Below are positions 516 to 51,922 of a stretch of 53,873 nt of DNA, piece by piece (position 1 is the stretch's first letter; the number at the start of each line of letters is the position of its first letter). A model generated the notes under the pieces. That model was not told where the DNA came from, ran no database searches, and saw only the letters and a list, made by a program, of their open reading frames with translations. The DNA is from Terramyces sp. JEL0728 (lineage: Eukaryota > Chytridiomycota > Chytridiomycetes > Rhizophydiales > Terramycetaceae): positions 1-53,873 of the forward strand of contig JADIIU010000089.1 in assembly GCA_027603945.1 (NCBI GenBank), in the 5' to 3' direction. The position numbers were made by a program, and so were the translations under genes.

Positions 516-3153
516 GTTCAGCAACTCCAACTACGTTGACAGCCCCAGCCAGTGTTCCGACAATACTACAGAACCAGACGCTTCCAGTAAATCAGACAGG
601 TGTACCAGAGCAATCTGGATTACCTTTCAACGCTACTTGGGCTTGTTATTCTGCACCAAATACCAACGGGCAACCAATTACAAAAGAGTTGTCACTTACA
701 TGCCCAACTGGATTTTATTGCCCAAACACAACATCCAGCGATCCAGGTTCATTTCCCAGAATTTGTCCCCCAAGTGTTGAATGCAGTATTCTCAGACTTG
801 CTGGTAAAGAATGTGAGCCTCAAGGACCACTAGAGCCAACCGTTTGCGACCACGGGTATTACTGTCCGAATGAAAATACCAAACTAGTTTGCCCAGAGCA
901 CCATTATTGCCCAACAGGTACTGTGCAGCCATTATCATGCGGTGCTCTAAGCATCTGCAAAGAAGGTTCAAGAACTGAGTTTGTTTTGGATGGTGTTGTA
1001 ACCATTGGTATCATTGACTTGCTATTGGTTGCATTCTATTTCATAGTTACATGGAAGAAAAAAGCGGATTCGCCAGAAATGAAGCCGTTAATAGAAAAAA
1101 GCAAAGTTACTCCGTTGGAAAAGGAAAGCGACGTAAAAGTTGAGGTGGTTGAAATGGAAAAGAAAGTAGTCGAAATGGATACAGTTGAAGGAACCACTCC
1201 AGAAAAAGATGTTCTAAGCGATGTTACCACTCAGGTAGTTGAAAAAGATGTATTCAGCGATGCAGCCACAGAAGAAAAGGTAGTCTCAGTTGATATCCCT
1301 GTTGCTGAAGATTTAGATGCACTTGTCCAAGCCTTTCACAAAGGATTAAATGGACGAGAGATTGCAATGGACTTTAAATTTGAAAATATGGGCCTCACAC
1401 TGCCATCTGGAAAGACAATCTTACAAGGTGTCAGCGGAATTATCAAGTCATCCAGAATGACTGCCATTATGGGTCCTTCCGGCGCTGGGAAAACTACCTT
1501 TATGAATGTGCTTTGCGGAAAGGTATCAAGGACAGATGGTAAATTGTATGTCAGCGGTAAAGAAGCGGAAATCCATGAATTCAAAAAGATGATTGGCTAT
1601 GTTCCGCAAGAAGACGTTATGATTCGTCAATTAACAGTTCGTGATGTTTTGACTCATTCCGCAAGAATAAGATTGCCAAGATCTTGGACTGAAGTAGATA
1701 TCCGTGGCTACGTAGATGCACTGTTGGTTGCTTTAAATCTCGCCCATGTCCAAGGTAGTTTTTTATTAATGTAGATACAATTATAGGTGATGAAGTTCAT
1801 CGTGGTGTGTCTGGTGGCCAAAGAAAGAGAGTCAATATTGGTGTAGAGCTGGCTGCAGTTCCGGTTTGCATCTTTTTAGATGAACCTACCTCTGGGTTAG
1901 ACTCCACATCCGCCCTTGAAGTTTGCGAAATCTTGCGAAAAATTACCAGACTTGGGTTGACTACTGTAGCTGTCATACATCAGCCTCGTGTTGAAATCTA
2001 CGAAAAGTTTGATGACATTCTAATGATTGCACCTGGAGGAAGAACCGCTTACCTTGGACCTGTTACTTCTGTTCAACCATACTTTGAAAACCTTGGATAC
2101 GTTTTCGACCCAAGAGCAAACCCAGCCGATGTTTTGATGGACATCCTTAGTGGAAAGGGGATTAACCCGATTAAAGTACATACCAGCATTGAACTTGCAG
2201 ATATATGGGCTGCCGAATCGATAGATGTGGAAGAAAAGACTGCTGTTAAAGTTATTGATGGGAAAAGTTCATTCCACGAAGAAGTGCCCAAGCTGATCAA
2301 AGAAAGAGGTGCTTCGTTCTTTAAACAGCTGATCTTTTGCCATTACAGAGGATTGATGCAACAGATTGCAGTTCCGCAATCCTTTGTGCTTGAAGCAGGG
2401 CTATCTGTTCTTGCTGGTGTTGCGATGGGAATTTCACTGTCTTCAAATCCAAACATGTACACTGGAATGTACTTGCCCCCAGTGACTCCACTATCGCCTG
2501 CACCTTTGGAATGGGTGATGCCGTTGATGGGTTTCTTGATTGCTACTGCTGCCGCTCTTGCAGCTGGCCCAGCCGCAGTTAAAGTTTTCTCTGAAGAAAA
2601 GCCAGTTTTCTGGAGAGAAGCATCGGCAGGACATTCTACCCTGGGATACTATATTGGAAAAACAGTGTCTTCCTTCTATCGTCTCGCAATATGCAGTATG
2701 CACTTTACAGTCCCATTACATTTGATATCTAAACCATTGATTGGGTTTTGGCATTTCTATTTGCTGATTCTAGCGACATACTTTGGTATATATGGTTTAT
2801 CAGCTGTTGTGTCATTCTTTGTTGAACGTGAAGACGCGTCCCTAATGGCAGTCGTTATCTGTTTGTTCCACGGTATAACTGCCGGATTTGGGATCTCTAT
2901 CTTGGATGCAAGAAATGCACATATTGGATGGTTATTTGATATGAGTTACAACCGATGGATCACCGAAGGGATGTACAACGAAGGTGTCAAGCTATTCACT
3001 GATATTTATGATATTCAGGGAAGTGCTGGTTTGTGGGGCTATACTCTTGATAGATTCACATACGACATTCTATTGGCAATTTTGATTGGATTTGTCTGGA
3101 GAATTGTGGGATATGTTGCAATGATGATGACCAACCGCGACAAGAGAAGATAG
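512..3153 (+). CDS. ABCG-family half-transporter with Cys-rich N-terminal domain (Adp1/ABCG24-like)
   Basis: Two exons, 512-1754 and 1775-3153, joined by a 20-nt intron; 873 aa. The N-terminal part (about residues 45-150) is Cys-rich with CPxGxYCP-type repeats. One membrane segment follows (about 160-180), then a charged linker with repeated EKDVxSD units. The nucleotide-binding domain has Walker A GPSGAGKTT (321-329), a Q loop (YVPQED), signature VSGGQRKRVNIG, Walker B CIFLDEPTSGLDS and an H loop (IHQPR). The C-terminal half has about six membrane segments. The intron falls before the signature motif. The layout matches yeast Adp1 and plant ABCG24/28; the substrate is unknown. A luminal Cys-rich domain should need a signal peptide, but the ATG at 512 gives none. 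A signal-like short ORF lies upstream at 411-461. Confidence 0.9.
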
Positions 3154-3286
3154 AATAAAGACTGTATTTTGTAGCATAGTTTATCTGCAAGCTGCATATT
3201 TATGAAAAAGTATCACACTGCTGAGTTTGAATTAATACAGATATTGACAAGTGCACTATTCCAGCACTGAAATTGTGAAAAAAGAA

Positions 3287-3359
3287 TGCTCCCTGTGAGA
3301 TTCGAACTCACGACCTTAGGATTATGAGACCTACGCTCTACCAACTGAGCCAAAGGAGC
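3287..3359 (-). tRNA. tRNA-Met (CAT), elongator type
   Basis: Reading the minus strand, a 73-nt cloverleaf folds without an intron. The acceptor GCTCCTT pairs with AGGGAGC, with discriminator A. The D arm contains GGCTCAGTTGG, the anticodon loop is CTCATAA with anticodon CAT, and the T arm is GTGAG/TTCGAAT/CTCAC. A run of six T follows the 3' end and serves as Pol III terminator. A G1-C72 pair and the D-arm sequence fit elongator Met better than initiator Met. Confidence 0.95.
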
Positions 3360-3455
3360 TTGCTCTGTTTTCGCTTGAAGCATTAACGACTATGGTGGAG
3401 TTGGCATTCTGATCAATCGCTATTTAACCAAATAATACGCTATATTGCACCCAAT

Positions 3456-5393: not shown

Positions 5394-6554
5394 ATGCAAG
5401 AGTGTCCAACAGAAATTGCACTAATAATCCTGCAATATTTACCCCACTATGAAGTGGTGCAGCTCTGCAGCGTTAATTCCAATTGGAATAAGATATTAAG
5501 CGATGATCGACTATGGAGGATAAAATGCAACGGATTCATGTTCAGCTGCAAAAAAAACACTGGATATCAGAGCTTCAAGGAAAATTTCACAAAATACAAG
5601 GATTGTTTATCTGAATACAGAGATATAAAGATTATTTCAAAGTAATTCATATTAATCTAGCCGGCTGCGACAGTGGTTGGAAGCCAAAGGATTAAAAGAT
5701 CTCACAAAAACGCTATTGCCTCCTGCACCGTACGAAATATTGAATCAGCTGGACTATAAATCTAGCATGGGCCAGCTATGCATGTTTTATCATTTGTTTT
5801 CGCGGGGACAGACACATGGTCCAGGATTATTTGGATCATACATGGTTTATAACGATTTCAACACTGTATTATTAGCCAGTCTTAAAACAGTTCATAATTT
5901 TACATTCTTTGGAAAATCAGTGCATGGACGGCCGAGTTATTTGCTCCAAACCAGCATGCTAGAGCCTAATTTTGATTGCACATTCTTGTACGCTAGTGGA
6001 CACTCATTTTTCAACCAAGGAAACTTTAAATTATTTATAACAAAGTATGTCGAGGATTTGGAGAATGGAAGATTTAATGTAGAAGATGGACGGATTTCCA
6101 GATTTCCAAACTATGGCCCCCATACAGCTGTTGGAGAAATCTGCAACGGTAAATTGATTGTAATCATAGGACTGCGTGTCTCTTGTTCGTCCATTCCATC
6201 TTTGGATGGCCCAGAATTAATGTATTATTATAGGATATCCATTGAATACTTTCCCGAGCTATCCAAATACAAGGCATGCCAGCTGAGGAAACGGAATTGG
6301 TTATTGACTTTCAAATCAGGGAAACAGGAAACAGTGTCCGGCGATGGTGTGGTTGGTCTTTTCCCGCAATTCTCTGGTATTATATTGCTAATGTAGAAAC
6401 TCAAAAGTCATTCGCGTATTGCTCTGCAGCTGGAAATAGAGAAGATGATGCAATTACATCCTTCGAAGGCTACCTGACCTTTGTGTCTACGAGCGAAGAG
6501 TTTAGAGTCACAGTGCCCAGATTCACCTTTGAACAAGTATCGATAGCAAACTAA
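5394..6554 (+). CDS. F-box protein with SUKH-like middle and C-terminal ApaG domain (FBXO3-like)
   Basis: Three exons, 5394-5641, 5661-6376 and 6397-6554, with introns of 19 and 20 nt; 373 aa. The start is the first ATG. Residues 3-45 form an F-box (PTEIALIILQYLPHYEVVQL). The middle matches the SMI1/KNR4-like region of FBXO3. The C-terminal part is an ApaG/DUF525 beta-sandwich: YYYRISIE, then KACQLRKRNWLLTF, then SGDGVVGLFPQFS, and finally FEGYLTFV. The second intron sits inside the ApaG domain, and splicing it restores the family pattern. FBXO3 acts as substrate adaptor of SCF ubiquitin ligases in the nucleus and cytosol. The acylaminoacyl-peptidase gene follows 99 bp downstream on the same strand. 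Confidence 0.88.
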
Positions 6555-6653: not shown

Positions 6654-8764
6654 ATGAAATTAAATATTAGGTCAAAATCTGTTGAATTAATTTCCCAAAA
6701 TTGGAATCCAATGTTCAAAAATGAAAAAGCTGCAGACATCTACAAGAAGATCTCAACCATCCCGGTCTATTCTGGGGTAATTCAAGTAAGGGAAACAAAG
6801 AATGCACTCTTTATCTCGGCAACATTGGCAGGAAAGGACAATGCTAGGGCATCCAAAATATCATCGCTTCAATCGGTAGTTTATGATTTATCGACAAATG
6901 AAACTACAATTGGATTCCCAAGTGAAATTCCGGAATCAAATGGGTTAAATGCTATTAGTCCAAGTGGAAAATTACAAGCAATCCTCAAAACATTTGGTGA
7001 AGAGCGGTATGTTGAAATCACTGGCGCATACAAAAGGTCAATCAAAGTTACCAAATCACATGGACCGTTTTATAATGATGACTATTTTGGATGTATTAAT
7101 TGGTCGGATGACGAATCGAAAATTGTGTATGTTGCGGAAGAATTGAAACCAACAGAGGATGCACAATACGAATACTTGTATGACCCTGGCGAAGGATACA
7201 CTGGGAAAAGAACTGCTTGTCCAGTTGTTATTGATTTGCTCCAAGAAAACATCACTGTGCTGAAGATGCCGTTTTTTGGAGTATCTCAGCCGTTATTCGC
7301 ATCAAATTCTTTGTACTTTGTCGGTGTTGAATCAGAACCCGTCCAGCTAGGTATAAAATATTGTGCAAACAGACGCACTGGGCTTTACAAATGTGATTTG
7401 GAAGGAAAGGACATCGTGCGTCTTTCAAAAGAAGGGGTAAACGCAAAATATCCTTTGCTTACTCCTGATGGAAAATCGCTAGCATATTTATGTAATCCAA
7501 TTCTTGGGCCGCATGATTCGTGTTGCCAATTGATTTCGCTAGATTTGGCAAGTGAAGTTGAATCTGTGATCGTTCCTTATGTTGAGGATCCAACCACAGA
7601 ATTTACCGGGCTCTTTTCTTTGAAATTAAAGCCAAAAAGTTGGATTGTTTATGAAAACCACACGATTTTGCTCATTAACGCGATCCAAAGGTGCAGAACT
7701 GTGATTTTAGCAGTCGACTTGTCTACAAACACTGTAATGAATTTGAATCTCGGATTAGAGTCTTGGAATTTGCTATGCACAACACCATCCGGTAGAATCA
7801 TCGCCGCTAAATCATCGCCTTCTGATCCGTCAAGTTTAATGATGTTGAACTATGGAATTGATAAAGAATGGACCACCATCGATGATTCTATCGAGAAATG
7901 TACCTCTTATTAATTTAGTACCTATTGCTTTTGACCATTTTCCAATTCCTGGCGAAACTGTCAATACCAATGAAGTTATTGTGATTAAAGGAGATCAAGG
8001 ACTATTCGAAAAGTCTCCGCTGATCGTCCTTCCTCACGGCGGACCTCATTCAGCAAACACTACAGATTTCAATTCTACTGTTGCATCTTTTGCAATGCTA
8101 GGATTTACCTGTATGCTTGTCAATTACACTGGTTCAACTGGATATGGAAACAAGCCAATCCAGTATTTGTTGTTAATAATAGCGATTTAATCGGACAAAT
8201 TGGTACTTTGGATATCAATGATGTCCATTCGGCTGCAATTTGGGCAAAAGATACTCAAAACGTTGATCCTGAAAATGTTTATTTGTTTGGAGGTTCGCAC
8301 GGAGGGTTTATTTCAGCTCACCTTGTAGCAAGATTCCCTGATTTCTACAAGGCTGCATGTACACGCAATCCTGTAGTCAATGTTGGTGCGATGGTGTCTA
8401 ATTCTGATATTCCAGATTGGTGCTTTGCGGAAGCTGGTTTGCCATTTGATTCAAAGATGATGAACCCGCTTTCTCCAGAAGGTTTCGGTTTTTTAATTTA
8501 GAATATAAGATAATGTTTGATGCTAGCCCTGTAGCTCATATCAGGGACAAAGTGTCGCCAATATTGATGATGCTGGGAGAAGGGGATAGGAGAGTCCCAC
8601 CAAGCCAGGGGTTACGGTTTGTTGAAACGTTAAAAGGCAAAGGGTTTGATGCACACACGCTCATGTTCCCAAAAGTTGGTCATGCGCTGGACACTTTCGA
8701 AGCTCAGCGTTACGGTTTTGAGGCAAGCGTTGCATTTTTCTTGAAATACCACTCTAAAAAATAG
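6654..8764 (+). CDS. APEH: Acylaminoacyl-peptidase (S9C prolyl-oligopeptidase family)
   Basis: Four exons, 6654-7899, 7919-8162, 8183-8481 and 8502-8764, with introns of 19, 20 and 20 nt; 683 aa from the ATG at 6654. The frame is open upstream to 6594 but has no ATG there, so a longer protein would need another exon. The N-terminal beta-propeller holds family motifs such as HGPFYNDDYFGCINWSDDES and YCANRRTGLY. The C-terminal alpha/beta-hydrolase has the oxyanion motif PHGGPHS, the nucleophile GGSHGGF, the acid in GEGDRRVP and the histidine in KVGHALD. The enzyme removes N-acetylated residues from peptides in the cytosol. The length is close to the usual 730 aa. The gene ends 20 bp from the convergent SEN1 gene. 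Confidence 0.93.
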
Positions 8765-8784: not shown

Positions 8785-11700
8785 TTATGTATTTGAATTA
8801 TTCTTGAAGCAAGTTCTTGTACGATATATTTTGAGGAACATCAGAAACCTTTGCCTGTTGTTAAAGAAATCTACCTTTTGAATTAAATTTCGGTCTTGCG
8901 CATTCAATATCAGCGATTTCCACAGAGGATCAGTGTAAAGCGTTTCTCTATTCCCAAGTACAATAAGCGAATATCTGGCACGCGTTAAAGCAACGTTCTG
9001 CATCAAAACAAGATTACCATTCTTCTTCTATCACTCAAGAAACCGACCGAACTATCTCTACTTGCTCTCACACAGCTAAGGATAATAATATCTTTCTCTT
9101 GCCCTTGAAATCCGTCAACCTAAGTAAAAACAATGCTACAGTGTTGATGTCTATATAATTTAAAATTTCATCTCCAAACTGAGCTCTGAATGCTCTTTTT
9201 AGCTGATAAATTTGCTCCTTGTAAAAAGAAATAATCCCAATCTTATGTCCAAATTTTATATTTGGAAATTGCTGAGCCAACAGTTGAATAAGAGTGACAC
9301 AGACTTTGACTTCATTTCTGTTGAATGTGGACAGATACTTTGATTTTTCTTCTCTACCAGATACATCCAAGAATATAAACGGTTTGAATGCAGGTTTTTG
9401 ATGCCACAGCGCTTTTCTTTCTTCCATCATCGCCGGAGAATCTTTTAATAGGCCTTTGTAAAATTGTTTACTTGGGAATATCGATATTTCAGGGTGCATA
9501 CGATATTGGGTTTTTAATAAACACACGGTTTCGGGATTATTGGTCAGCAATCGCTGAAATAGAGATCTGTCATAGCCTAGTTTAATTGCACCTTGTGATT
9601 TGATTGTAGGTGGAAGCTGTTGCGGATCTCCAACCAGAATACATTTGCTGCAGCCATATCGGAGAGGAATTAACGTACTTAATTCTACGGCTTGACAAGC
9701 TTCATCAATAATTACGGTTTCAAAGGTGCATCCTCGTAGCTCTGCTAGGCAATCATGACCAGAGCCACTTAAGGTGCTTAGAACAATATCTGCTCGAAGC
9801 AATATACTTTGTCTGTATTTTGCTTTCTCTTTTTCAATATCTGAAGAATTGTTTCGCTGTTCTTCTGCTAGTTTCTCTTGAAGAAATCTGATTTCGCTTG
9901 TAAGTTTGCCAATATGTGTTGCAATTAATGGGTCGGGACGATCATTGACCTCCTTTTGTCTCCACACCTCACGCTGCTCTTTCGCTTTATCCAGTCTACT
10001 TGCAGTTTCAGACATTGAATCTTTTCTGTTTGCAAAATGTTTTTCAACTAAAGCATCCTATTATAAATTCACATTTACCAAACTTATTGAAATAACATCA
10101 TTATGAATTGACGAGGCGTTTCCAATTCTGACAATATTTGGTTGGTGGACTTTTCCATTATAATCCAAAATTCCATGCATCAATCTCCTCGTTATTTCGT
10201 CAATTGCAGCATTAGATGGAGCACAGATCAATAGCCGCTTGTTTACTCGACCAGGATACTGATCCATCTTTGAGTGCGCCGGGAAATTTGTGGGTATGGC
10301 AATGGCTTCCTTTGGGATTTGCAAAGCAGAAACTATAGCCAATAGAGTCCTAGTTTTCCCTAATATTACTTTCCATTACCTGTGCCTGGCGGCCCTTGAA
10401 TCAAAACGAATCCTAATTTCTGATTTACTGCACAGTACAAAGCCTCGGCTTGCGATTCATTAACTCCAAGTTTTCGAGTGTAATGGTCAATCTTTGCTCT
10501 GTCTGGCTTCATAAAATTAGATGTTTTAGAAGGGTTAATGATATTTGGAAGCATTTGATAAGAACCCATTTTTACGAGGGTATGGTATTCACGAATATAA
10601 GTGGTAAGAGACATTACAAGTTTTGCGTCCCATTTAGTTTGCGGTCGGATATTAGGTGTGTTCTTTACATTGTCTCCCGTCAAGCTAAGTTTGCAAGTAA
10701 GGCTGTAGACCTTTTGCTTCTTTTGGACACTTTTTACAAACACTAGTATGTGAACCCCGGAATGGTCCGTCAGGCAAAGAAAAGAGTTTTCATTCCAGTT
10801 TTCTTTTCTGTAATCAGTGTCTGTCATTGAAAATTTCACTTCATGCGATGTATCGATGATTTGGATATTTTCTAAATATAGGACAAAAGATTCTTTATCC
10901 TGCACATGCTTCAATTCCTGTGCAAACTGTGTTTGGCATTCAATCATAAGGAGAGGTTCAAACGCTTTAATGTACTGCAGGGGGTTTGCAAAGGTCAGTG
11001 GGATCTCTTGGGAATCTTTGATTGAAATTTGAGGTTCTAACGTATCCAATGTCCAATGAAGTATTGTATCGAAAAACTGCTCCATCTTGATTGCAGTTTT
11101 CGACTCTTTAGCCATATTATTTGGTATGCCAATAGGCTGTCCAAGTTTGAATCTTCGATCTAAAGGTACTTCAATACGCTTGATGCTACGTCTTTCCCGT
11201 TCCGGTTCTTCATCCGTTGGTTGAGGAGAAGATTCACGATATCTCTTTCGATCCAGCACAGTAGCGGTCTCGGGAATAGAGTGCTTGATTTCGTTCTTTC
11301 GCCGTTCCATTCTGACTTCTTCCTTTAGCTGCCCCAACAAAGATGATTTCTTTTCCGGTTTTCTGGGAGCTGGAACAGAAGGTTGGAATTTAGCTTGTTT
11401 GATATGGATGATTTTTTCTGGATTTGCAGATTTCGACAGCAGAGATGGTTTGGTTTCTGATTTTTGCATAATCTTCCACAGCTGTTCTGTGAACGAACTC
11501 GATGGCTCTGTTGCTTGTTTTTTGGTAGCGCGCAACATGGAATTATCAATTGAACTAAACATTGACCTCTTCAGTTCTTTACGCGGATTTAAGAGTTTCC
11601 ACAGTTCCTCTCTCTGACTATTATTGGCTTTGTCGTGTATTTTTTGAATAACTAGTCTATTAGATTCGACAAGAGTTTCAGCGCAATCAACTGTCTTGCA

Positions 11701-14025
11701 AGTATCTACAACGATTTTGGAGACCAAAAGGTTAATTTCATGATCTGTAGTTTCCAGCCAGTTGCTTAAGGAATTCAAAACATCATTTATCCAATCGGAC
11801 AAAAATCTCTGCTCATCCCCTATACGTCTGGCCATTGCCGCTACGTTGGATGAAAAGTTTTTAATAGTTAGAATTACATCCTTTGCATAGTAGTCGGCAC
11901 TATCCATTTCATTTTTCATAGTTTTTTTCCAGCTTTCTAGATTTGCGAGTATTCTATTGCATAACAAGAACACCGTTAACCAAAAAGTCTTTGCGGTGGA
12001 GTCGATCCTGATTTCCTTGTTTGGGAAGATGAGTTTGAAATAATTGGAGAGCAGCATCATAAATGGTCTTATGGAAACGTGTGGCATATATCCATATTCA
12101 ATTGCACGATCCATTTTTTGGGCAAGTTCCAATATGATTGCAGCGTCAATTTTTTGTTGACTGATAAATGTGATTAGCGACCTGTCGTTTGAATCTTGTC
12201 CTGTCACATTCTTCAGTATCCCCCTTATTTTTGAATGGATTTTACGGTCATTAAAAGAAAATAATTCCAACATGGTCTTTAAATCAAAAATACTATCATT
12301 TTCCAACAAACTGGTGATACTTGACGTAGCAATGCACAGTGAATCCCAAAACCTCGTGTCTTTAATCACTTCAACATGCTTTCCGGCAAATGCCAGTCTG
12401 CTAAAAATGCTAACCAATTCTGTTATATCCGATTTCTGAATTGGCCACTGATCTAATCCCTTCCACAAAGCTTGATGCTCCACTATTCTAATATTCTGGA
12501 AATTCTCTAATCTATTTTTGTACAGCGCTACAAGATCCTTTTTAATAATCTGATAGAATATCGGATAGAGAGAGGCCATGATCTGTTCGCAGCTTTGCTG
12601 CTGGAAAAACGCCAAAATTGCAGCCTGAGTGTCGATGGGACAGGTGTTAGATTTGGTAATGGAAACTAGCATCTCGCACAAAACCTGCTGGAATTTCCTA
12701 GACCATGTTGAAGACAACAGCAATAGCTTTTTCACAGCCCCATCAAGCCAAAAATTGTCCCTTGCGAAATTACAAATATGTGTTATCCAGGACAATGACA
12801 AAACCCTCCTTTTATACAACAATTCATCGTTTGGGTTTTCTGTTGTAATAGCTTCAAACATGGGAGAGTTATATATCATATCCACTAAATCATATCCAAT
12901 TTCAGTCGAAAATTTCTCCTTTATCCAACTGCACGGCGTTGATTGCAATATAAATTCGAAAAATGCCAGTCGTTCCCATAGATTGCTGATTTCATTTTTC
13001 AAAAACGACGTAATTATTAGCATGTCTGGACTCGTTGTACATAATTTTAAATATTCCGGAAGGTCGGTTGTACTAATACTTCTAAGGATAGTCGTCAGCT
13101 GATACCACGCAATTGATTTATCCTTGACGACATTGATTTTTAGTAACTTTTGAGCTGGTTCATCGGTTGGCAGTTTGTATAATTCTTTCACAGTATTGAA
13201 CAGGTAGCTCAAAACTGGCTCAACGTCTTTCTTGTCTGCTAAATTGTATTTTGAAGTTGTATTAGTCAAGCATGTCAATGCCCACTCTCTGATTACTTTA
13301 TCTTCATGCAAGGCAAGGTACAAGAATCCTAGTTTAAACCTCGACTACCAGTCTTGATTTGCCCCCGCATAGCAAGATTCTTGAATTGTACAGCATGGTT
13401 CATAATCTGTACAAATAATTTATCCAGCACAGCATTCGTTAGAATTGTTGGATCTATCAGTACTTCGTGGATTATTGGAAATGTGTGTCGTCGAATTTGT
13501 TTGTGCCTTTCGGGAGTTTCTGCGCTTTCAAAACTTGCAATCATCCTAAATAAATTGTAAAGTACACTTTCATAAAGTCCTGCTGTCGGTCAAGGTTGAA
13601 TTGGTTTACAAAACCCTTTCTACAGTTAACATGATATCACATTATCCCGACACTTTCTTCCCCAAATATTGGTGGATATATACTGAGAAACTGTTCCCAA
13701 CAAGCTAGGTTAAGTGATAATCAACCGTGAAAGGCAGTGATACAATCAGAACAAAGCGAAAGATTCATGCGCAAAATTGTGTACATTCGCTGTATCCCTT
13801 CATCCGGATTTTTACAGGAAAAGAATTCAAATAATTCACATACATCTGGAAATTCGTGCAGGAAATGTTGGTCTTTCAATGATAAAATATAATAAACACA
13901 GTTATGCATGAATTCTACATTATCTATGGGGTACTTAGTCGTAAACCATCATCGTATGGCTGTCTTGTGTGATGTCGCAGACTTATTTGAAATTCTTCCT
14001 TTGAAACTTTAGGAACTGTGGACAT
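8785..14025 (-). CDS. SEN1: Sen1/senataxin superfamily 1 RNA-DNA helicase
   Basis: Ten exons in transcription order: 14025-13935, 13914-13726, 13704-13641, 13619-13566, 13545-13349, 13328-10380, 10359-10079, 10057-9140, 9119-9018 and 8997-8785. The nine introns are 20-21 nt; together they give exactly 1685 aa. The first four exons are short; they join into a continuous helical Sen1 N-terminal region starting MSTVPKV. Helicase motifs: GPPGTGKT near residue 1180 (split by an intron after GTG), [48 protein letters not shown] and MNVALTRAR. The segment before the helicase is basic and probably nuclear. Sen1 terminates RNA polymerase II transcription and removes R-loops. The protein is long for the family but not unusual. 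It ends soon after the helicase, with only a short tail. Confidence 0.95.
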
Positions 14026-28312: not shown

Positions 28313-31101
<2,789 letters not shown>

Positions 31102-31272: not shown

Positions 31273-31786
31273 TTATTTATTTTCAACCAACTGTCCAATG
31301 CATGTGTACTTTCCAGAAAAGAATTGGAACCATTCTTCTAACGAGTTTTTTTCTTCTGTATTAAGATTGTCCAGTTTATCAATTGGTAAATTGACATCGG
31401 TAAGCACGCTGGGGTCGAAAGAATTCTTTGCTAGCCCTCTGGAAGCATCTCTACCAGCAAAGTTTTCATACATGCTTCCTGGTGTTAGTTTGGATTACCT
31501 GGGCCATAGAAATCCGGTTTTGAAGAAACATCAAATACTTTTCCGCAAACTGCAAGATAGATTGGCTTTCCGTTTTGTCCATTGAATTCTTCTAATCCTT
31601 TTGGAGTGTAGTCCTTAAGTTCAATCACTTCTGCTGTTAGACAAAGTTACTTTTATGGGGATTAGCTGGAACTTCTTTTTTGTCTGATTTTGAAGAGAAA
31701 TAATCATAGACTACATATCCAATTACTAATAAGAGAGCCAAGTTGAGCGGGGAAGTTAAATTTCCAAGATCCATTTTCTCTGTCAT
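31273..31786 (-). CDS. DAP1: Dap1/PGRMC1-type cytochrome b5-like heme protein (MAPR family)
   Basis: Three exons, 31786-31651, 31630-31499 and 31478-31273, with two 20-nt introns; 157 aa. Start chosen at the first ATG ([10 protein letters not shown]). One N-terminal membrane helix ([15 protein letters not shown]) is followed by a MAPR cytochrome b5-like domain: [20 protein letters not shown], then [13 protein letters not shown], then [19 protein letters not shown]. The tyrosines around FYGPG...YENFAGRD are the usual heme ligands. Dap1 supports cytochrome P450 (Erg11) sterol synthesis at the ER. The first intron has two in-frame acceptors, 17 or 20 nt (aacagcag); I prefer 20. Confidence 0.93.
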
Positions 31787-38262: not shown

Positions 38263-41200
38263 TTAAACAATCTGCAGCTGTACTAATTCCAAAAATAATC
38301 CAGCAGAGGACACTTCCGTAGACTGGTCAATCCAGTTGCCCAAAAATTTTTCAAGGTTTTTGAAATCGGCATAAAATTGCAAATCCAATTGGGCAAGGCT
38401 CTTTTCGGTCTGAATATTTTGCATCTTTTTTGAAAATTCGATAATCGTGCTACAGATATCCTTTAACGCCTGGGCAATATGAAATTGCTGTGAATGTAAA
38501 AATAAGTTACGTTGTATATCCTGCAATATGTTGGAGTGCGATTCTAGTATTCCGTCAAGCGTAAAATAAGCAGAGTGAAGTTCAAGGGCTGCATATTCAT
38601 CAACTTTTTTGATAAACTGTTCCCACGGCTTATTGATTGCATGTTCAAATACATAAAAGAGCAGAGAGCTCAGGAAAGCGTGGCATTTGCTCATGAACTG
38701 AATAATCCGCACCTTATCCTCGCTGAACAATGTTTTATCATTTTTCCAATTCAGCGTCCGATTTATCCTGTTGAATGCTTCTTGAGCTTGAAGTATTGGC
38801 AATATACTTGAAAATATATTCGAATATTCCTTTAAAAATGGGTCAATAAATATGTTAAATGGCTTGGGAGCATTAAAACCTATCCTCAGACATCCAGCTA
38901 GTTCTAAGCCTATTGTTAATATTAGAAACCTGTCGCGGAAGGTTTGATTTGAATTTCAAACAAATCATCCATTCCATTGCCAAGGTGCTTGGTTGTAGTC
39001 GCAATAATATCTTGGAATATATATTCAAGCTGGTTAGAAGGGATTTTTGATAGCTGTCCATTTAAATTGAGGCTACTCGGAGAATCTTTGAAAAGTCTAT
39101 CAACAATCAATCTGATATATTCTCCATCACCCATCAAATAGATGCATTTCAGTACACTGAGATAAAAGCGCAAGTCGCTCTGATCTATTTCCCTGTCAAC
39201 TGTAAAAAGTTCCGCAATACTAAATCTGGACAGTAAATCCAGCTGTGTTTTCCACTGGTGTACGACGGACCTATCAATACTCTCCTGAATTGTCGTTGGT
39301 AAGTTTGATAGCTCTTTTGAAATATTAATAATCTTTTGGAATTCACTGTTGATCCAGTCGTTTGTATTCATTCGAATAACCTGTAATTGCGCTGGGGATG
39401 CTTGGGGAGATATTATCCAATTAATAAATTGTTTATCTTTGGCAAATGATGTATGTTGAGCAGAGTTGATTACAAGATCAAAAGGTCCTTCAGAAGTCGA
39501 TTTTTTTCTTTCGTCCCCTTCTAATTCAACATTAACAAGATTAGAATTTTGTGCATCAGAGTTACTTTGGTTGGAGACAGAGTGTAATATGCTTGTTGGA
39601 TACACTTTTGATATTTCTGGTTCACCAGCACCAACTTCATCTTTGCCTATTCCCGAAATCTTTTCAATTTCCGTATTTTCCGAAATTACTTTATATGAGC
39701 TGTTCGTGGCACTCTCAGCCAGTTGATTTGGAAAATTCTCGTCCTTTGAATTTACCATGCAGTAGTCAAACAGCTGCGCGGGTTCATCAAAACTGTACAA
39801 AGAACCTTTATCCCAGCGTTGAGCAATTAAAGGATTTCTAAAAGTGTTCAGCTGTATTCTCCTAGTTCTCCAATCCAATAATTCGCTTTTTTTATCCAGA
39901 ATTTTCAAATCATTTTCGTATTGCAACATCATCTTTTTCATCACTTTAGATTCTAATAATCTCTCTTGCGCAACTTTTTTAGATGTTTCCTCTTGATGCC
40001 AAAGGTTGCGTCTATTTTCCATTTCCAAGTTCAATCGCTTGAATTTTTCCTGCTCTTTTACAAATTGCTAGGTTAGCAATATATACCTCTATACTATACT
40101 TTAGTTCCGATTTCTTTTGCTGCATATTTTCCTTTTGTTTCCCAATTGCTTCTTGGATATTTTTTAGATTTTCTCTTTTCAGTACCAACTCACGAATCCT
40201 TGAAGCATATTTTTCCTCAGTTTCATTCACTTGCTGCATTTTCAGTGCAATGAAACGTTTTTGCAAGCTGTTGATGAATTGGAACTTGTATTTCGCAATT
40301 TCTTGCTGGTAACTGTCTTAGCGACGTACTTACATTTCTATTTTAGCTTCATTCATTTCCCATCTTGCTACAGGTAAAGCAATGGTTTTGTCAACTGTGC
40401 TAGGCTGTAAAACCCTCCATGTATTTCCAACAGCAAAGATTTGGTCAACAAATTTTTGGGAGAGGAAATCAGGAATATTGTAGCTGTTGCTAATAAAATA
40501 TTGATCATCTTCAGCTTTTGAAATGAAAAATTCGGTCACTGGATCGAAATTTTCCATTCCAACTTGTAATCCGATATTTAACCAATTTGAAATCCATCTG
40601 AATAATGGAGAGGATGCTTTGTCAAACAAGTATTTCAGTATTGAAAGTTGCTTTGCCTCTCCTTGTAGTTTCTCTGATTTTGAAATTTCCAAGTATAGTT
40701 TGCAAAGATATATCGACGAACTGTTCTGATTTTGAGCTGAAATCTCCATAGATTGGAAAAGGTTTCTAAAATAAGCGACAAGCTTTTCGAGAGGACGCAG
40801 AAGCAAATCCAAGTTCATCAAGTGCAGGATATTGTATTCAATATGAATTAAATTGGTTTGAATTAATTCCTTCAAAATTTGTACACCTTCTGCAAAGGCC
40901 GAGATTGTCAAATTGCTCTTCCTGCAAGTTAAATTTGACATACTTGTGATGCCTAAGATCATTGATATAGGTAGATATCCAAACCATGTTGCTCCCAAAC
41001 TGCAAGTATTTTTGAATGAATGCATTTGTAGATTTAGCTGTAGTACCATCAGTAGTTATTGATGAGTATTTGCAGTAAAAACCCTGATTAAATATAAATA
41101 AATCCGATTGAATCCCTCCGCACATCATCAATAGTTTCTAAATTAGCCGATATTACTTGAATCAATACTTTTTCGGGAACGTAAATAATATCAATGGAAC

Positions 41201-41935
41201 ATGGTAGGTTATATTCATAATATATTTGCTGGAAAGTTGAGCAGGGGGAGTCTGTAACTAGTTGGGATTTCGAAGGGCTCTTTTCTGTTTCCTGCTTTTC
41301 CCAAGAAATATATCTGTACTTTAATGGATCCAGAATGGAAATATTTTCCCACATATTGGAATCCGAGTTGTATGCAGAATCAATATTTGAAAGATCTTGA
41401 ACAGTTGTGAGCCTACAATCCAAATCTTCCTCAAACAAGTTTAACTCCCTTAGTTTGGGAATAGAGAGTACTAGATTAGTTCTAATTACAATCTGATCCA
41501 TCAATTTCGACTCCGAAAATGTTTGATTTTTCAGAAAAACACTTTTTTAAATTCGATTCAAAAATATCGCTGGAGTAGAATACATTGAATCCTTGCTTAA
41601 ACTGATTTTCATTTACAATTTGCTTTTCTTTTCTATTTCCCTTGGAGAGCTGTAATAGAAAGTATACAACCTGCAATGAAAATAAAATTACAGGTAGATC
41701 AGCTTCATCCAAGTGATTGTACAACTCCATTAGTCTTTCCGCTTCATTTCTGCGATTTAATCTGCAAGATCCCAAGAAAAACTTTCCTAGTTGTTGTGTC
41801 TGGTTAAAATAAGATTACTATCGACAACACCGCTCCCTCCGATATTCTTTTATGAGTATTTTCATAATATTGATCCAACAACTCGTAATTTCTATCCTTG
41901 GTTACAGCTTTGAACAATTGCTGAAAAGATTTCAT
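38263..41935 (-). CDS. Gamma-tubulin complex component, GCP5/GCP6-like
   Basis: Eight exons: 41935-41819, 41799-41490, 41470-41125, 41084-40944, 40921-40334, 40312-40087, 40067-38930 and 38909-38263. Introns are 19, 19, 40, 22, 21, 19 and 20 nt; 1170 aa. The N-terminal Spc97/98 (GRIP1) region contains AFAEGVQILKELIQTNLIHI, then LLRPLEKLVAYFRNLFQS, then ASSPLFRWISNWL and the family's DPxxEFFI motif as DPVTEFFI. A long charged coiled-coil insert (about residues 500-640) follows, then the GRIP2 domain with FNRINRTLNW. The long insert is typical of GCP6 (less so GCP5), which caps the gamma-tubulin ring at centrosomes or spindle poles. The start MKSFQQLF is the first ATG, but upstream coding is possible. 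Confidence 0.8.
41085..41124 (-). other. 40-nt intron in the GCP5/6-like gene, the longest found
   Basis: On the minus strand it runs from GTGCGGAGGG to TTTAATCAG and is the only GT...AG choice that joins the two open frames here (LETIDD to GFYCKYSS). It is exactly twice the modal intron length. Its donor GTGCGG is also atypical. A nested or two-step splice is conceivable. Confidence 0.6.
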
Positions 41936-44072: not shown

Positions 44073-44884
44073 AATAAATTTATCAGATAATTAACCACTA
44101 TTTTGTCACCAAAACTTCTTGAACAACTGAATGGATTTGCTGGCACGCATCCACACACAATTCTATTGCCTGCATTAACAAATGTTACCTCAATAGATTG
44201 TTCGACAGATGAATTACCGGATTGGATTATATGTGTAACTTGCTTTAACGACGACATTGAACCTACAACAATAGAGCCTCGTTAGTGTGTGAATACCATT
44301 AGCTAGTGACTCTTCCTCTTCAGCCAGATCTAATCCAGATATATTATCTACAAATCCAGCAGAACATCCAGTTACTAAGTCGTACATTGATATACCAGCA
44401 TTTGCAAGAGCCAGGGAAGCGCAAGTAATCGCTCCAGCTAATGCTGCAAATGTCCCGTCACTCTCCAAAACAGTAACATACAAATCCAACTTACTTTTTG
44501 GTAGATTTTCCAACTGTATAGCGGGAGTAAGTGCTTGTTCAAGTACTAGACTAAAATCTTTCTCTTGCTCATCCTTTGCATAACCTTTTGTTAGTATATC
44601 CTACCTCTTCTTTCCATCCTACTAAATGGTGCGAATTTGAAATCACAGTTCAAAACCCCTTGATTCTTTGAGATTTGTTTTGGCCCATAGACAGCACAGA
44701 TAATTTTCAACGATCCTGATTCAATAAACGCACTTCCATTTGCTTGGGGAATTGTCCCAAGGTCAAAAAATATTGGCCTGATACTGTCTAACGGCCTCTC
44801 TCTGTTTTTGAATGATATCTGTTTCTTCTCTGTGACAATCAAGCTGGTGTTTTCCGGCCCATAAATCCTCTTTCTATCAACCAT
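44069..44884 (-). CDS. MTR3: Exosome core subunit Mtr3/EXOSC6 (RNase PH fold)
   Basis: Three exons, 44884-44605, 44584-44298 and 44278-44069, with introns of 20 and 19 nt; 258 aa. Family motifs: LDSIRPIFFDLGTIPQANGS, then CAVYGPK, then LNCDFKFAPFS, then ALANAGISMYDLVTGCSAG and SMSSLKQVTHIIQSG. The pattern ISMYDLVTGC separates Mtr3 from Rrp41/Rrp46. The protein is one of six inactive RNase PH-like subunits of the exosome ring that processes and degrades RNA in nucleus and cytosol. It shares its stop region with the SP-repeat gene (44069-44072) and its start lies 34 bp from the VPS11 start. Confidence 0.9.
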
Positions 44885-44918: not shown

Positions 44919-47900
44919 ATGAGCTGGAGGCAATTTAACTTTTTCGAAAAAGAACAGTTGGAATTCAGCATAGCCAATACATCAGCTACTTGCAACGGCG
45001 TATTTATTGGTGATTTACAAGGAAACATTCACCAGTGCAACAGATCGCTCAAGCCGATCATGTCCTTCAAAGCATATCCAAATAGAATTACGCACTTGAA
45101 GTATATCAAGAAGAAGGGGATTTTGCTTTCGATTGGCGAGGATGAAGTTAGTGTTCCAAATTTAAAAGTATGGCATATCGATAAAGACAAGGTAAATAGT
45201 TGCTCATGTCAGGTTGTAGTAATTTAATACCAGACCCAAGCTCCAGGATTAACACGATCGACCCGCATTACCCACGGCAGCAAGATATTTCCAGTATTTA
45301 ATGTTTCAATTTAGGTTACGGCATTTGCAGTGCTGGACAACTTGACGCAAGTTGCTATTGGACTGGAAAACGGTGTAGTAATCTTGATCAGGGTATCTAG
45401 TTTATAATTAAAGGGCGACGTTTCAAGGGACAGAGTAACTAAATCTCGTATTGTCCATGAAGGAACTGAAATTATTGCTGGTTTAGGGTTTCGAGAAGAT
45501 GAAAACGGAGTGTTTTTATATATTGCAACAATGGCTCGAGTATTAATATGCCCTACAACTGTATCAAAGGAGCCGGTAGTCGCTATTTAATAGAGATTCT
45601 GTTGGATGTAATTGCTTCGGAAGCTGGGAATACTGCTCTTACTCCCCAAGAGCGAAATCAAGATATGCTTATTGCAAACCAAGAAGCTGTGTACTTTTAT
45701 GGCCCAGAAGGAAAAGGGCCGTGCTTTATAATTGGAGGCAAATATACCTAACATTTAGGAGAAAAAACGCTGCTTTCATGGTACAGGGGTTACTTGATGA
45801 CCGTTTCAAAGGAAATTACCAACGTTGATGTTCGCAGTAGCGAAGTTGCCGCAAAACCACCTTCTGAGGAAGCAAATAGTGGAACCGTATTAACGATTTA
45901 CGACTTGAAAGGAAAGTATATTGCCTTCAAAGATGACTTTGGAAGGCGCATCTTTGACTCTAGGGCAGCAAAGGCGATAGGTGAAATAATCAAACACGTT
46001 ATTCCTGATTCAAACGAAATTTTTGTAATTACGGAACAAAACAATGTAACCGTATACTAAGTAATAGGCATTTAGACTAAGAGACATTGATTTGGCGACC
46101 AAATTAGACACTCTTTACACAAAACACCTGTACAACGTGGCAATGAACGTTGTTCTTCAACCTCCGTCCGATATTCAAAATGTATCAAAGTTTAAGAATT
46201 CTGAGGATCTAATTGAAAGCGCGCTGCAAAAGTCTGAAGATGCAGCCGCAACAATCATGGATATATGCAAGAGATACGGCGATAATTTGTATGCAAAAGG
46301 AGAGTTTGACTCTGCAATGAAACAATACATGCGAACTATCGGGCATTTGCAGCCATCCTATGTCATTCGAAAGTTTTTAGATGCCCAGCGATTGCACAAC
46401 CTTACCGCCTATTTACAAGCTCTGCATGACCGTGAGCTCGCAAACTCCAATCACACGACATTGCTATTAAATTGCTACACGAAATTACACGATATAGCTA
46501 AAATTGATGGATTTATAGATACTTCTATGACTTTTGATGTAGAAACCGCCATTACCGTTTGTAGACAGGCATCCTTTTTCCAACAAGCGCTCCGAATAGC
46601 AAGTAAATTTCAGCAGCACGATTGGTTTATCAAAATCCAGATCGAAGATTTAGAATTATATGATGAATCAATCGAATATATCACCGTTTTACCGGAATCA
46701 CTTTTCAGCTCAACTCTGATCAAATACGGACATTTGCTAGTTACAAAAAGACCAGAAAAGATGACTTTAATGCTTGTGGAAACCCTTAATAGAGACGATT
46801 GCCTAAACTTTAAGGATGTGATTCCATTTTATGCTACAAATATGGATTGGTGCGCCGTTTACCTGGAAGGGGCTCTGAAAACCAATTTTGAAATCCAAAT
46901 AGAGTTGAAAAAAGAAACAAAAGAGTTTAGTGGAGACGAGCATGAAGATATAGGAATAATCTGTGATACCTTACTTGACGTGTACTTGACTTTGCGGCAG
47001 AATAATCGCAATCTTCCAAACATAAAGGAAAAGAAGGCAAACTGGGACGAAAAGATTACCAGCTTTTTGGAAAACGTAAATGTGATTTTAAAATGACTTT
47101 AGGGCCTGTATGACTTGGAGAATGCACTTGTTTTATGCAAGCAATTCCAGTTCCACAAAGGAGTATTGGTTCTTTATGAAAAACTTGCACTGTACGTTGA
47201 TTTAATCTAGTTATTCTGACTGTCTGAGCTACTTTATCCAAAATAATGATTTTGAAGGAGTATTGTCCATCGCAAAAAGATATGGGTGTGTTGTAATTAA
47301 ATTAGTGGCCGGGACCCTTCCTTATGGATTAAAACCTTTGCTTTTTGTGTAGAAATGTGTTCCGAACAAGAAAATGTTGATGGTCCTAGTGATAAGCTCA
47401 TCCAAGTTTTAGAGGAAATAGATCAACGGAAACTATTAACTAGAGTCGAGGTTGTCCAACTGATCACTAAATCCCCGGGTATTACTCTTGGCATGCTACG
47501 TCCGTATCTGCTAAAGTTGTTTAACAAAGACGCCGAACAGATTGAAAAGGTATCTTATCACTAATCTCGACGCAAACCCTTATTGCAGGATATACAGCCG
47601 ACACCGAAAAAATTCAATCGGATATCAAGGAAATTCAAAACAGCCCAATAACATTTCAGGGCACAAAATGTGAGCTATGTAGACAACAGTTGGAGATGCC
47701 TACAATCCATTTCCTCTGTAAACACGCTTTTCATGGAAAGTAACTGGTATTAATGTAGATGTTTGGGAGATATGGCCCACGAGTGCCCCAGGTAATTCCC
47801 CTTAATTTAGATGTGGCCCAGAACACCACCTTATTGAAGATATGGTAAAAACACAGAAACTGAATGCTCAGAAACATGATGTATTTAAACAAAAGGTATT

Positions 47901-47979
47901 TGGCGTCTAATAGTAGCTCAAGGACAGCAACGAGCCTTACCTCGCCGTTATCGATCACGTATCAAAGAATGTGTTTTAA
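44919..47979 (+). CDS. VPS11: Vps11/Pep5, core subunit of HOPS/CORVET tethering complexes
   Basis: Fourteen exons: 44919-45212, 45234-45293, 45315-45392, 45414-45575, 45596-45737, 45759-46045, 46068-47081, 47103-47191, 47211-47285, 47306-47549, 47570-47739, 47759-47791, 47811-47895 and 47917-47979. Thirteen introns of 19-22 nt; 931 aa. The N-terminal beta-propeller has LKVWHIDKDK and GPCFIIGG. The clathrin-repeat region has TKHLYNVAMNV and DVETAITVCRQASFFQQALR. The C-terminal RING is built across three exons: TKCELC, HFLCKHAFHGKCL, HECPRCGPEHH. Vps11 links the class C core on endosomes and vacuoles and its RING binds Vps18. One intron uses a GC donor (45738) and one ends in CG (47550). Confidence 0.95.
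45738..45758 (+). other. GC-AG intron in VPS11
   Basis: The donor reads G|GCAAATATA, the branch-like box CTAAC, and the acceptor TTTAG; 21 nt. Removing it joins FIIGG to EKTLLSWYRGYLM, the expected HOPS propeller sequence. No GT donor fits the frame. Confidence 0.85.
47550..47569 (+). other. GT-CG intron (non-AG 3' splice site) in VPS11
   Basis: The sequence is gtatcttatcactaatctcg, 20 nt, with a normal donor and CTAAT box but a CG end where other introns have AG. The spliced product, EQIEK followed by TQTLIAGYTADTEKI, aligns without a gap to metazoan Vps11 before the RING as I remember it, including the Tyr and the FQxTKC start of the RING. The next real AG, 39 nt from the donor, gives a wrong frame that stops. 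Confidence 0.85.
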
Positions 47980-50304: not shown

Positions 50305-50357
50305 AAATAATAAAGTTTTTTTTGCTGAAAATACTCTTTAGTTCACTATAGGTCCTG

Positions 50358-51072
50358 ATGAAAGAATTTAGGCCAATAGCAATTCAGGGGAGTGTCGCAA
50401 ATTCTCCAAAGGTAATTAAAACTATACCGTTTGTGAAATGCAGCTATTATATAAAGTTTTCCGGTCATATTCCAACCTCGTATTATGGACCAAGAAGTAT
50501 GGGCTATTATTTCCCACGGTATCCTATTTCGGTATCTGCGAAGCTATCCGGGATATTGTAGCCAGACGAGAGAAATTCAGGTTCCATAACATCTTTTTTG
50601 TAGACCCGGCAAAGACGGATTGAAGATCAATACTGCTCACCACATGTCAAAATATGGAACTGTATGAGTTTATTTTGGTAATATTAGAATTTGCTGCTGG
50701 ATTGTTTTTCTCTATAAATTGAGCGCAGAGCTTCCAGATTTCACATATTGCTCAATAACAAACTTGATGAAAATCTATTGCGATTTGATCAATCCCGACA
50801 AGAATGTTTCTGTCTATTCAGCTGTAATTTGTCAGATATTGGTTTTGAAATGTAAAAAAATTGGAGAAAACTTTGATTTAGTACAACTATTTGGTACTGT
50901 TTAGACCGGGAGCTGGTTATAATTGATAATTCCGATTTACAAAGGTTTGGTGAATCATTGCTATTCCATACTTGTCCTGCATGGTTTATTCTTGAAGGAA
51001 ATGGTTAGTATCCAACCTGACAGTGGCAGAATGGAAGCACAACCAATCTATCGCAAATTCGCTACCATTTTA
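50358..51072 (+). CDS. Unresolved, possibly broken plus-strand gene between two velvet genes
   Basis: Several open stretches look coding but do not join cleanly. The first, from about 50358, includes LLYKVFRSYSNLVLWTKKYG and ends at a stop near 50623 in FFVDPAKTD. The same frame continues after that stop to MELYEFILVILEFAAG, then through a plausible 20-nt intron (50705-50724) to FAELPDFTYCSITNLMKIYC. A third piece reads LVIIDNSDLQRFGESLLFHT and CPAWFILEGN and may end at 51072 after another 20-nt intron (51005-51024). The join near 50890 fits no normal intron. The chain is helical, HEAT-like in style; I do not recognise it. It may be one decaying gene or two genes. Confidence 0.35.
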
Positions 51073-51288
51073 AACACAGTTAAATTTTTTATTTCCCTAG
51101 TTTAACAGTGTGAACCTCAGAGCTAACAGAATTATTAATGAATGCTTGGAACGAGCCGTCTTGAGGCAGGTGCGACCTAATCAATTGCCCTACTAGTTAA
51201 ATCTATTGAATGAACGACTAGATCAATAAGTGCAAGTTTATTTGTAACAGAAATAAATTAATGGACTGATTTACACCTTGTAATACAT

Positions 51289-51922
51289 TCAGCTATCATC
51301 CTGGGATATTAAAATGCTTGGGCAATTAAGGACATCTCGTTTGTATTTGTTGCTGTTCTTGTCCACTATACCCTGTATTTCAAACGACTCTTGCAGCTGC
51401 GTTTTTGTTTTCGGTTTCCTAAAATCTCGCTTCTTAAATATCTGAAATTCATTAGTTGTAACTTCGCTGACAGATGATCTATTTTAGCACATCATGAACT
51501 TGTCCATATCTATGATCTTGCAAACCAGTCGGTAAAATCCTGGATACACTATTCCTACATCGTTGAATACAAAAAACAGTTTTTGCTTTCCGTCTATTGG
51601 ATCAGTTAATAAGGTTGGAGCTATACATAGCTCTCCTATCAAGTTGACGTCGGTTCTTTTTGGAAATTTTGCGAAATTTCTATTAGAGAAATCTTCTGCA
51701 AATACAATACTAATATGGCACAGTAATTTAATTTGTTGAAACTGATTTAACATTTCATTACTTTTTCTTTGGTTTCTTTTTCTTTTAGTGTAATTTGCAA
51801 TATTAACATTGGATGTCTTTATAAATAATCACTTACAATAGAGTGGGGATTAATGGGAATAGTACCCCATCGCAACTTCTCCCTATTAGAGGTTCTTGTC
51901 GAATTGTAATTTCATACGACAT
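51289..51922 (-). CDS. Velvet-domain protein C
   Basis: Four exons, 51922-51837, 51816-51762, 51741-51500 and 51478-51289, with introns of 20, 20 and 21 nt; 190 aa. It starts MSYEITIRQEPLIGRSCDG, then PLIPTLLHPMLILQITLKEK. Core motifs: FPKRTDVNLIGELCIAPTLL, TDPIDGKQKLFFVFNDVGIV, PGFYRLVCKIIDMD, NEFQIFKKRDFRKPKTKTQL and SFEIQGIVDKNSNKYKRD. Intron positions and phases are those of copies A and B. Its tail differs from B after the NKYKRD block, ending SILISQDDS. It is a single-domain velvet factor like the others. Confidence 0.85.

Follow-up and report, generated by a model that had tools for sequence, protein, structure and literature searches.

Introns of about 20 nucleotides as the predicted norm in the chytrid fungus Terramyces sp. 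JEL0728

The subject of our analysis is the introns of one stretch of DNA, 53,873 nucleotides (nt) long, from the chytrid fungus Terramyces sp. JEL0728 (order Rhizophydiales). This stretch, contig JADIIU010000089.1 of assembly GCA_027603945.1 (C89 among the 231 contigs of the 15.0-Mb genome), is called the window in what follows. The window contains 88 predicted introns in 19 genes, the first beginning at position 1755 and the last ending at 51836, with lengths of 19 nt (17 introns), 20 nt (42), 21 nt (23), 22 nt (5) and 23 nt (1). No intron in the final list is shorter than 19 nt, and the 15-17 nt range of Stentor and the mikrocytids is not reached. Our preferred reading, to which we give a probability of about 85%, is that these are genuine U2-type spliceosomal introns that would have shrunk to the lower limit of what the Terramyces spliceosome can process. 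A previous reading of the same DNA, made from the letters without database searches (the sequence-only reading), had taken the host for a fungus, which it is, and had placed 88 introns in 19 genes between the same limits, which we reproduce exactly. Its length tally (15 introns of 19 nt, 40 of 20, 22 of 21, 6 of 22, 3 of 23 and single introns of 26 and 40 nt) holds as to the norm of about 20 nt while the counts change to those given above, and its 26- and 40-nt introns are unneeded once GC-AG, GT-TG and GT-CG introns are allowed. Two of its protein lengths stand (Laa1, 2019 amino acids (aa); Vps11, 931 aa) and two do not, Sen1 being 1674 rather than 1685 aa and insulysin 984 rather than 970 aa, probably from other start or splice choices (the deposited insulysin has 961 aa).

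Introns were predicted with a gene finder written for this analysis, which combines a coding score with intron candidates on both strands and was trained on 254 kb from five contigs. The final list for the window is the output of this gene finder corrected with homologues and hand checks; two rows were removed before counting, 19173-19191, which merely fused two genes, and 45192-45212, which was ambiguous. About 80% of the 254-kb sample is coding as predicted, and this predicted coding sequence has an intron density of approximately 2.2 per kb. Under a learned length prior, 398 of the 437 introns predicted in the sample were 19-23 nt long, and the same range prevailed on all five contigs (84/89 in the window; 77/85, 114/126, 32/35 and 91/102 on the others). 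Giving an equal prior to every length from 10 to 200 nt left 246 of 362 introns in this range (iteration 3), the splice-site model of that run having been initialised from flat-penalty introns of 10-60 nt. Outside the training set, 12 held-out loci totalling 59 kb gave 78/86 introns of 19-23 nt, and 51/86 under a flat length prior. The near-uniform, narrow length range close to the known minimum by which tiny-intron genomes are recognised is thus found in the sample, and the tabulation that the sequence-only reading had proposed, here over the 254 kb, is dominated by lengths of 19-23 nt and branch-to-AG distances of 5-6 nt.

Of the 89 introns that the unsupervised run placed in the window, 84 were 19-23 nt long and the other five measured 15, 31, 34, 110 and 120 nt. 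These five were replaced after inspection of sequence and homologues and a run restricted to 17-27 nt; they had been stand-ins for GC-AG, GT-TG, GT-CG or GAG-ending introns, for an ambiguous place, or for a gene fusion. Introns of 99, 111, 121, 142, 157 and 195 nt from the first pass were gone or altered once the model was refined. If the 88 introns of the window were retained, 65 would shift the frame, 20 would bring in an in-frame stop and 3 would leave the frame open, proportions to be read with the knowledge that the gene finder favours such cases. As a side observation, the 21-nt introns of the 254-kb sample have an in-frame stop in 71 of 91 cases, against 57 and 40 in the other two frames; we make no claim from this excess, because selection for decay of unspliced RNA and detection bias are inseparable here.

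The 398 short introns share a compact anatomy. The donor is GTA, with A in 90% at +3, A in 56% at +4 and T in 64% at +6, while position +5 is T in 47% and G in just 17%; the commonest donor is GTAATT. A branch-like box is present in 379 of the 398, most frequently as TTAAT, TTAAC or CTAAT, and of those 379, 356 place the branch A at intron nt 14-16 and 336 have 5 or 6 nt beyond it. The final trinucleotide is TAG in 245, CAG in 99, AAG in 47 and GAG in 7, and the information content is about 5.9 bits at the donor and 7.1 bits at the 3' end. Since the branch position is nearly fixed and so is its distance from the 3' end, the two sides of the branch each contribute only 1-2 nt of length variation. 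The GTA donor, and a CTAAC/TTAAT box whose A stands 4-7 nt before the end, had been described by the sequence-only reading and are borne out here. In the window, 85 of 88 introns have the GT-AG or GC-AG ends of the U2 type (GT-AG 84, GC-AG 1), the remaining three being GT-TG (2) and GT-CG (1), and the box is complementary to the GUAGUA of U2. U12-type introns carry an ATATCC or GTATCC donor and a TTCCTTRAC branch; these motifs are not the pattern in the 398 introns, where GTAATT and YTAAY take their place.

We examined how far such a pattern could arise by chance, using strand and gene labels that are output of the same gene finder. The motif GTA-N(7-12)-YTRA-N(2-4)-YAG occurs 246 times in sense and 34 times in antisense within predicted genes, a sevenfold difference, while 82 kb of intergenic strand contain 12 occurrences. 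In a run that used a flat penalty and left out the motif model, GT-AG yielded 22 introns in the window, 10 of them of 19-22 nt, the highest number of that size among all 256 end pairs; the other 255 pairs averaged 1.4 and reached 6 at most. This version replaced an earlier low-penalty decoy control, in which GT-AG was absent from the 15 end pairs with the largest gain and A/T-rich pairs dominated because they have more candidates on offer. A whole-intron score set to keep 80% of 408 called introns matched 50 antisense and 32 uncalled sense segments across 211 kb of genes; at 90% kept, these numbers rose to 123 and 108. These counts suggest that the intron, when read as one word, carries in itself most of what is needed to identify it.

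Homologous proteins provide a test of the individual junctions. We required five residues on each side to align without a gap, at 30 junctions in Prp8, insulysin and Vps11 and with up to 119 homologues, and 28 of the 30 junctions were gapless in at least 74% of comparisons. The six Prp8 introns gave 693/699 gapless comparisons (random positions, 4311/4422), the 11 insulysin introns 1269/1309 (random, 3053/3579) and the 13 Vps11 introns 1239/1477 (random, 2195/3193), so that insulysin and Vps11 show a real margin over random positions and Prp8 a small one. Single junctions reached 118/119 (insulysin intron 6) and 115/117 (Vps11, 47192). The claim that the introns of about 20 nt are real is backed by gene finder, chance controls and homologues, and their spliceosomal nature by U2-type ends, branch box and gapless junctions, as far as DNA and protein evidence goes.

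A small class of introns departs from the usual ends. In the run that allowed any one non-canonical end, whose restriction to 17-27 nt makes it uninformative on longer introns, 29 of 498 introns used one: seven have a 3' TG, three a GC donor, one a 3' CG and 18 some other end. The GT-CG intron of Vps11 (47550..47569, + strand) has the box CTAAT, its A being followed by 5 nt, and is gapless in 107/111 homologues; either of the two AGs found in the next 30 nt would put the protein out of frame, and a 39-nt reading from 47550 was rejected, the frame being broken. The predicted GT-TG intron of Laa1 (36094..36114, + strand; box CTAAC, 5 nt after A) has no AG within 30 nt downstream, and its removal restores the open frame of 2019 aa. 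Other predicted 3' TG or CG introns at the usual branch distance lie at 21199-21218 in the window and, elsewhere in the genome, at C1:33871-33891 (- strand), C2:2840-2860, C2:8702-8721, C2:28332-28351 and C3:3468-3487 (- strand). The GC-AG introns, all of 21 nt, are at 45738-45758 in Vps11 (gapless in 111/116 homologues), C2:9663-9683 in a condensin subunit and L028:1029-1049 (- strand) in SF1.

The TG and CG ends could instead be assembly base errors or unrepresentative alleles, with every real intron ending in AG; we regard this as a serious alternative, though we lean against it. These ends are known from assembled sequence alone, and as a bare motif TG-ending windows outside called introns show no sense enrichment (15 sense, 14 antisense), so that the TG-end claim rests on frames and proteins. 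There the claim is backed by the GT-TG introns of RNA polymerase III subunit 1 and a dynamin, whose frames hold and whose junctions are gapless in alignments to solved structures, and by the Vps11 GT-CG intron; in the condensin subunit the alignment passes the GT-TG junction with a two-residue gap three residues before it. TG also ranked first, with 7 of 29 against 3 for the next, when 30 non-canonical end pairs were equally allowed, a ranking whose prior does not fully correct for the commonness of TG. Across 130 fungal genomes GT-AG makes up 98.7% of introns, and pairs beyond GT-AG, GC-AG and AT-AC 0.26% (PMC7072748), and functional GT-TG sites are known from human genes (PMC4176328). If the ends are real, we would tentatively propose, as an idea still doubtful, that the 3' site is picked mainly by distance, with the cut 5-6 nt after the branch A, so that the A of the terminal AG would be partly dispensable and TG or CG usable at the ruler position; the donor would work largely without a G at +5, and the intron would be one fixed-length word rather than three sites.

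As for the machinery, Prp8, U2, U5, SF1 and Slu7 are encoded in the genome with matches above cut-off; U2 contains GTGTAGTATCTG with its branch-pairing GUAGUA in the usual form, and the U5 loop GCCUUUUAC is likewise usual. The auxiliary factors looked for were few (SF1, U2AF65-like, Slu7 and Isy1), and all are encoded. Slu7 is less needed where the AG lies close to the branch, and it is encoded here despite the short branch-AG distance. The sequence-only reading had suggested looking for changes in the small nuclear RNAs and Prp8; what was found of these, U2, U5 and Prp8, is of the usual kind, and U6 was not found by the family and pattern searches.

An unlikely explanation, one that keeps the introns real, is that the spliceosome itself has become adapted to them through changes in factors crowding the branch site, among them the Isy1 N-terminus, as proposed for Stentor. 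The usual Isy1 N-terminal motifs are RNEEKAQ and MARN. A six-frame look for both in locus L043 found neither, and when the predicted Isy1 (C35:111606-112275; loci L042 and L043) is aligned to the best solved ISY1 chains, the match starts no earlier than residue 38 or 39, which leaves the N-terminus of the prediction unaligned. The start of the gene is itself uncertain, its first exons being poorly resolved in a model that includes a 17-nt intron and two micro-exons, each a few nt long. The rarity of G at donor +5 (17%) would also suit an altered spliceosome, and the Stentor Isy1 N-terminus is reported to be non-conserved (PMC9505925). Prp8 is ordinary, with 82-85% identity to the other chytrid proteins listed and 98% to that of Boothiomyces sp. 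JEL0866.

Deposited gene models bear on a third and very improbable explanation, that the real introns are longer and the gene finder produced the short ones. The deposited insulysin model of the contig has the same introns as ours at 10 of 11 sites and a longer intron at the eleventh, which costs 22 residues that Globomyces and Batrachochytrium retain. The deposited Vps11 model differs at 3 of the 10 junctions compared, ends early at one of them (truncated at 791 residues) and removes 42 nt at 45192-45233, where our list removes 21. The longer choices thus lose residues kept in relatives or truncate the protein, whereas the short introns restore gapless alignments at the insulysin intron 6, Vps11 GC-AG, 47192 and GT-CG junctions given above. 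At 45192-45233 two intron-like units of 21 nt stand in tandem, and removal as 42 nt, as a single 21 nt or stepwise is indistinguishable; neither the 42-nt reading (19/116 gapless) nor the 21-nt reading (8/116) is supported by homologues. Two deposited Boothiomyces models, those of Prp8 and Vps11, have an insertion of 7 residues at the precise position of a Terramyces intron. An intron of 21 nt left unspliced would add just that many, a match suggesting that the tiny-intron trait is common to the family. Given the mis-spliced insulysin and Vps11 models and these two apparent read-throughs, further errors of this kind are probable in the proteomes of these chytrids. That the segments are DNA-level insertions, assembly errors or eliminated sequences rather than spliced introns is the least probable explanation and close to negligible, for while their removal is supported at the DNA and protein level alone, they have GT-AG ends in 84/88 cases, a branch box at fixed spacing and a strong strand bias, are found on all five contigs and in held-out loci, and leave gapless homologue junctions.

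The reading we prefer, genuine U2-type introns near a size floor, would be explained by an ordinary U2-type spliceosome working at its geometric minimum. The intron would be recognised as a unit (intron definition): the spliceosome would read the branch box jointly with the 5' site and take the 3' site by a ruler, at a fixed short distance of 5-6 nt past the branch. From branch to AG the distance is too short to accommodate a polypyrimidine tract. A bias towards deletions, acting on a compact genome, may have pushed introns down to the size floor, and introns falling below it would have been removed because they could not be spliced.

Several points weigh against this reading. The geometry is visible in the sequence, whereas the ruler, the deletion bias and above all intron definition are what we infer from it. 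Our sample covers about 2% of the genome, and splicing is approached here through DNA and homologous proteins. Of the 437 predictions, 39 are outside 19-23 nt; the five in the window have been explained away, the 34 on the other four contigs stand as predicted, so that longer introns may occur as a minority. Two Vps11 junctions are weak (45213, gapless in 8/116; 47792, in 57/107) and are not confirmed, and the Prp8 junctions barely beat random positions because the whole protein aligns almost gap-free. The U2AF65-like gene, which has RRM domains and is split by introns, scores 251.7 bits, below the curated family cut-off of 310.3. Family and pattern searches of the whole genome did not find U1 or U6, for which the tools, the assembly or an interrupted or diverged gene may be responsible; two U6 family matches, near-identical to each other and below the Rfam cut-off, and one pattern match were rejected, being by eye without the rest of the conserved U6 core.

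The 19 genes are given here in order, each intron by its first position with its length in nt in brackets. An ABC transporter (ABC2_membrane; 512..3153, +; Pfam PF19055/PF01061) has one intron, 1755-1774 (20). It is followed by an ApaG-domain gene (5538..6554, +; PF04379) with three, 5642 (19), 6149 (21) and 6377 (20), and an acylaminoacyl-peptidase (6654..8764, +; PF19283) with three, 7900 (19), 8163 (20) and 8482 (20). A SEN1-type helicase (8798..14025, -; PF23576) has ten: 8855 (20), 8998 (20), 9120 (20), 10058 (21), 10360 (20), 13329 (20), 13546 (20), 13620 (21), 13705 (21) and 13915 (20). Four uncharacterised genes with one intron each come next, at 14272..15101 (+; 14948 (20); no Pfam match), 15135..16276 (+; 16114 (20); no Pfam match), 16630..17712 (+; 16685 (21)) and 19190..20673 (-; 19333 (23); no Pfam match), the lower end of the last being approximate since the gene finder fused it with a neighbour. 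These four form a cluster (14272-20673) with similar C-terminal stretches, which presumably resemble those of penta-EF-hand proteins; the three genes tested have no Pfam match. A protein kinase (21093..22404, +; PF00069), which we take to be LAMMER-like, has six introns: 21199 (20, GT-TG; alternatively 21209, 23 nt, GT-AG), 21333 (19), 21533 (19), 21761 (19), 22129 (21) and 22253 (20). Another uncharacterised gene (24187..24980, -) has one, 24477 (20).

Insulysin (25074..28253, +; deposited model P0121; homologue junctions) has 11 introns, at 25317 (21), 25365 (21), 25441 (20), 25958 (20), 26237 (20), 26343 (20), 26823 (20), 27145 (22), 27380 (21), 27678 (20) and 27823 (20). A second kinase gene (28313..31101, -; PF00069), in our estimation Ire1-like, has seven, 28493 (21), 28782 (19), 29484 (21), 30350 (20), 30529 (20), 30751 (20) and 30885 (19), and a cytochrome b5-domain gene (31273..31786, -; PF00173) has two, 31479 (20) and 31631 (20). 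The gene at 31965..38227 (+; 2019 aa), presumed, as in the sequence-only reading, to be Laa1/HEATR5-like, the tested exon having no Pfam match, has ten: 32297 (20), 32588 (20), 32815 (19), 34334 (20), 34723 (21), 36094 (21, GT-TG), 37148 (22), 37314 (20), 37651 (20) and 37906 (20). That at 38263..41935 (-), assumed by us to be gamma-tubulin-complex-like and also without a Pfam match in the tested exon, has eight, at 38910 (20), 40068 (19), 40313 (21), 40922 (22), 41138 (19), 41471 (19), 41671 (21) and 41800 (19). An RNase PH-domain gene of exosome type (44098..44884, -; PF01138/PF03725) has three, 44170 (19), 44278 (19) and 44585 (20). Vps11 (44919..47979, +; 931 aa; deposited model P0241; homologue junctions) has 13: 45213 (21, not confirmed), 45294 (21), 45393 (21), 45576 (20), 45738 (21, GC-AG), 46046 (22), 47082 (21), 47192 (19), 47286 (20), 47550 (20, GT-CG), 47740 (19), 47792 (19, weak) and 47896 (21). 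Two Velvet-domain genes (PF11754) lie near each other, at 47990-48613 (-) with introns 48156 (20), 48430 (21) and 48506 (22), and at 51289-51970 (-) with 51479 (21), 51742 (20) and 51817 (20). The window also holds a complete tRNA-Met at 3287-3359, and positions 1-60 look by eye like the 3' part of a tRNA gene cut by the contig end.

The sequence-only reading knew of no fungus with introns of this size as the norm. None of the open-literature matches listed contains such a description, and the text consulted of a study of 644 fungal genomes mentions no such case (PMC8476143), so that this part of the statement is uncontradicted; most of the introns checked are already present in the deposited models of the contig, and the fact is therefore implicit in public data. 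The tiny-intron norm of Terramyces has apparently gone unremarked in the literature, where a 23-nt Trichomonas intron was called one of the shortest known in 2025 (PMC12316389). Terramyces belongs to the same kingdom as yeast, in which the structure and genetics of the spliceosome are best known, and it could offer a fungal test case in which the minimum intron size becomes testable by spacing mutations.

The parallels that the sequence-only reading drew with heterotrich ciliates and nucleomorphs agree with the literature. The introns of Stentor coeruleus measure 15-16 nt, their branch A being nt 10 or 11, and like those of Terramyces they are near-uniform tiny GT-AG introns in which this A is fixed, 5 nt from the end; the most abundant Stentor intron, GUAAUUUUUAUAUAG, has the donor GTAATT that is commonest in Terramyces too (PMC9505925). 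Stentor differs in having no strong branch consensus (PMC9505925), whereas the introns of Terramyces, a fungus, are 19-23 nt long with the A at 14-16 and a clearer box. The introns of chlorarachniophyte nucleomorphs are likewise numerous and narrow in range, at 18-21 nt (PMC10245619), though a nucleomorph, the remnant nucleus of an endosymbiont, has a highly reduced genome, and Terramyces is a cellular fungus of 15 Mb. Mikrocytos mackini and Paramikrocytos canceri resemble Terramyces in their numerous, conserved introns of very narrow range, yet these mikrocytids are parasites with introns of 16-17 nt and only 17-19 spliceosomal proteins identified (PMC10245619); in Terramyces the few auxiliary factors searched for are encoded. 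Paramecium shares short introns (median 24-25 nt) and a U2-type spliceosome, but it is a ciliate with a broader range, 15-100 nt in P. bursaria (PMC12862383). Microsporidia have short introns among fungal relatives, but few per genome and with a reduced spliceosome (PMC10245619), compared with the roughly 2.2 per kb of predicted coding sequence in Terramyces. Earlier reports of tiny uniform introns concern ciliates, the relic nuclei of endosymbionts and reduced parasites. Their occurrence in a cellular chytrid, whose genome has 15 Mb and whose Prp8 is ordinary, would suggest that such introns require neither extreme reduction nor the peculiarities of ciliates.

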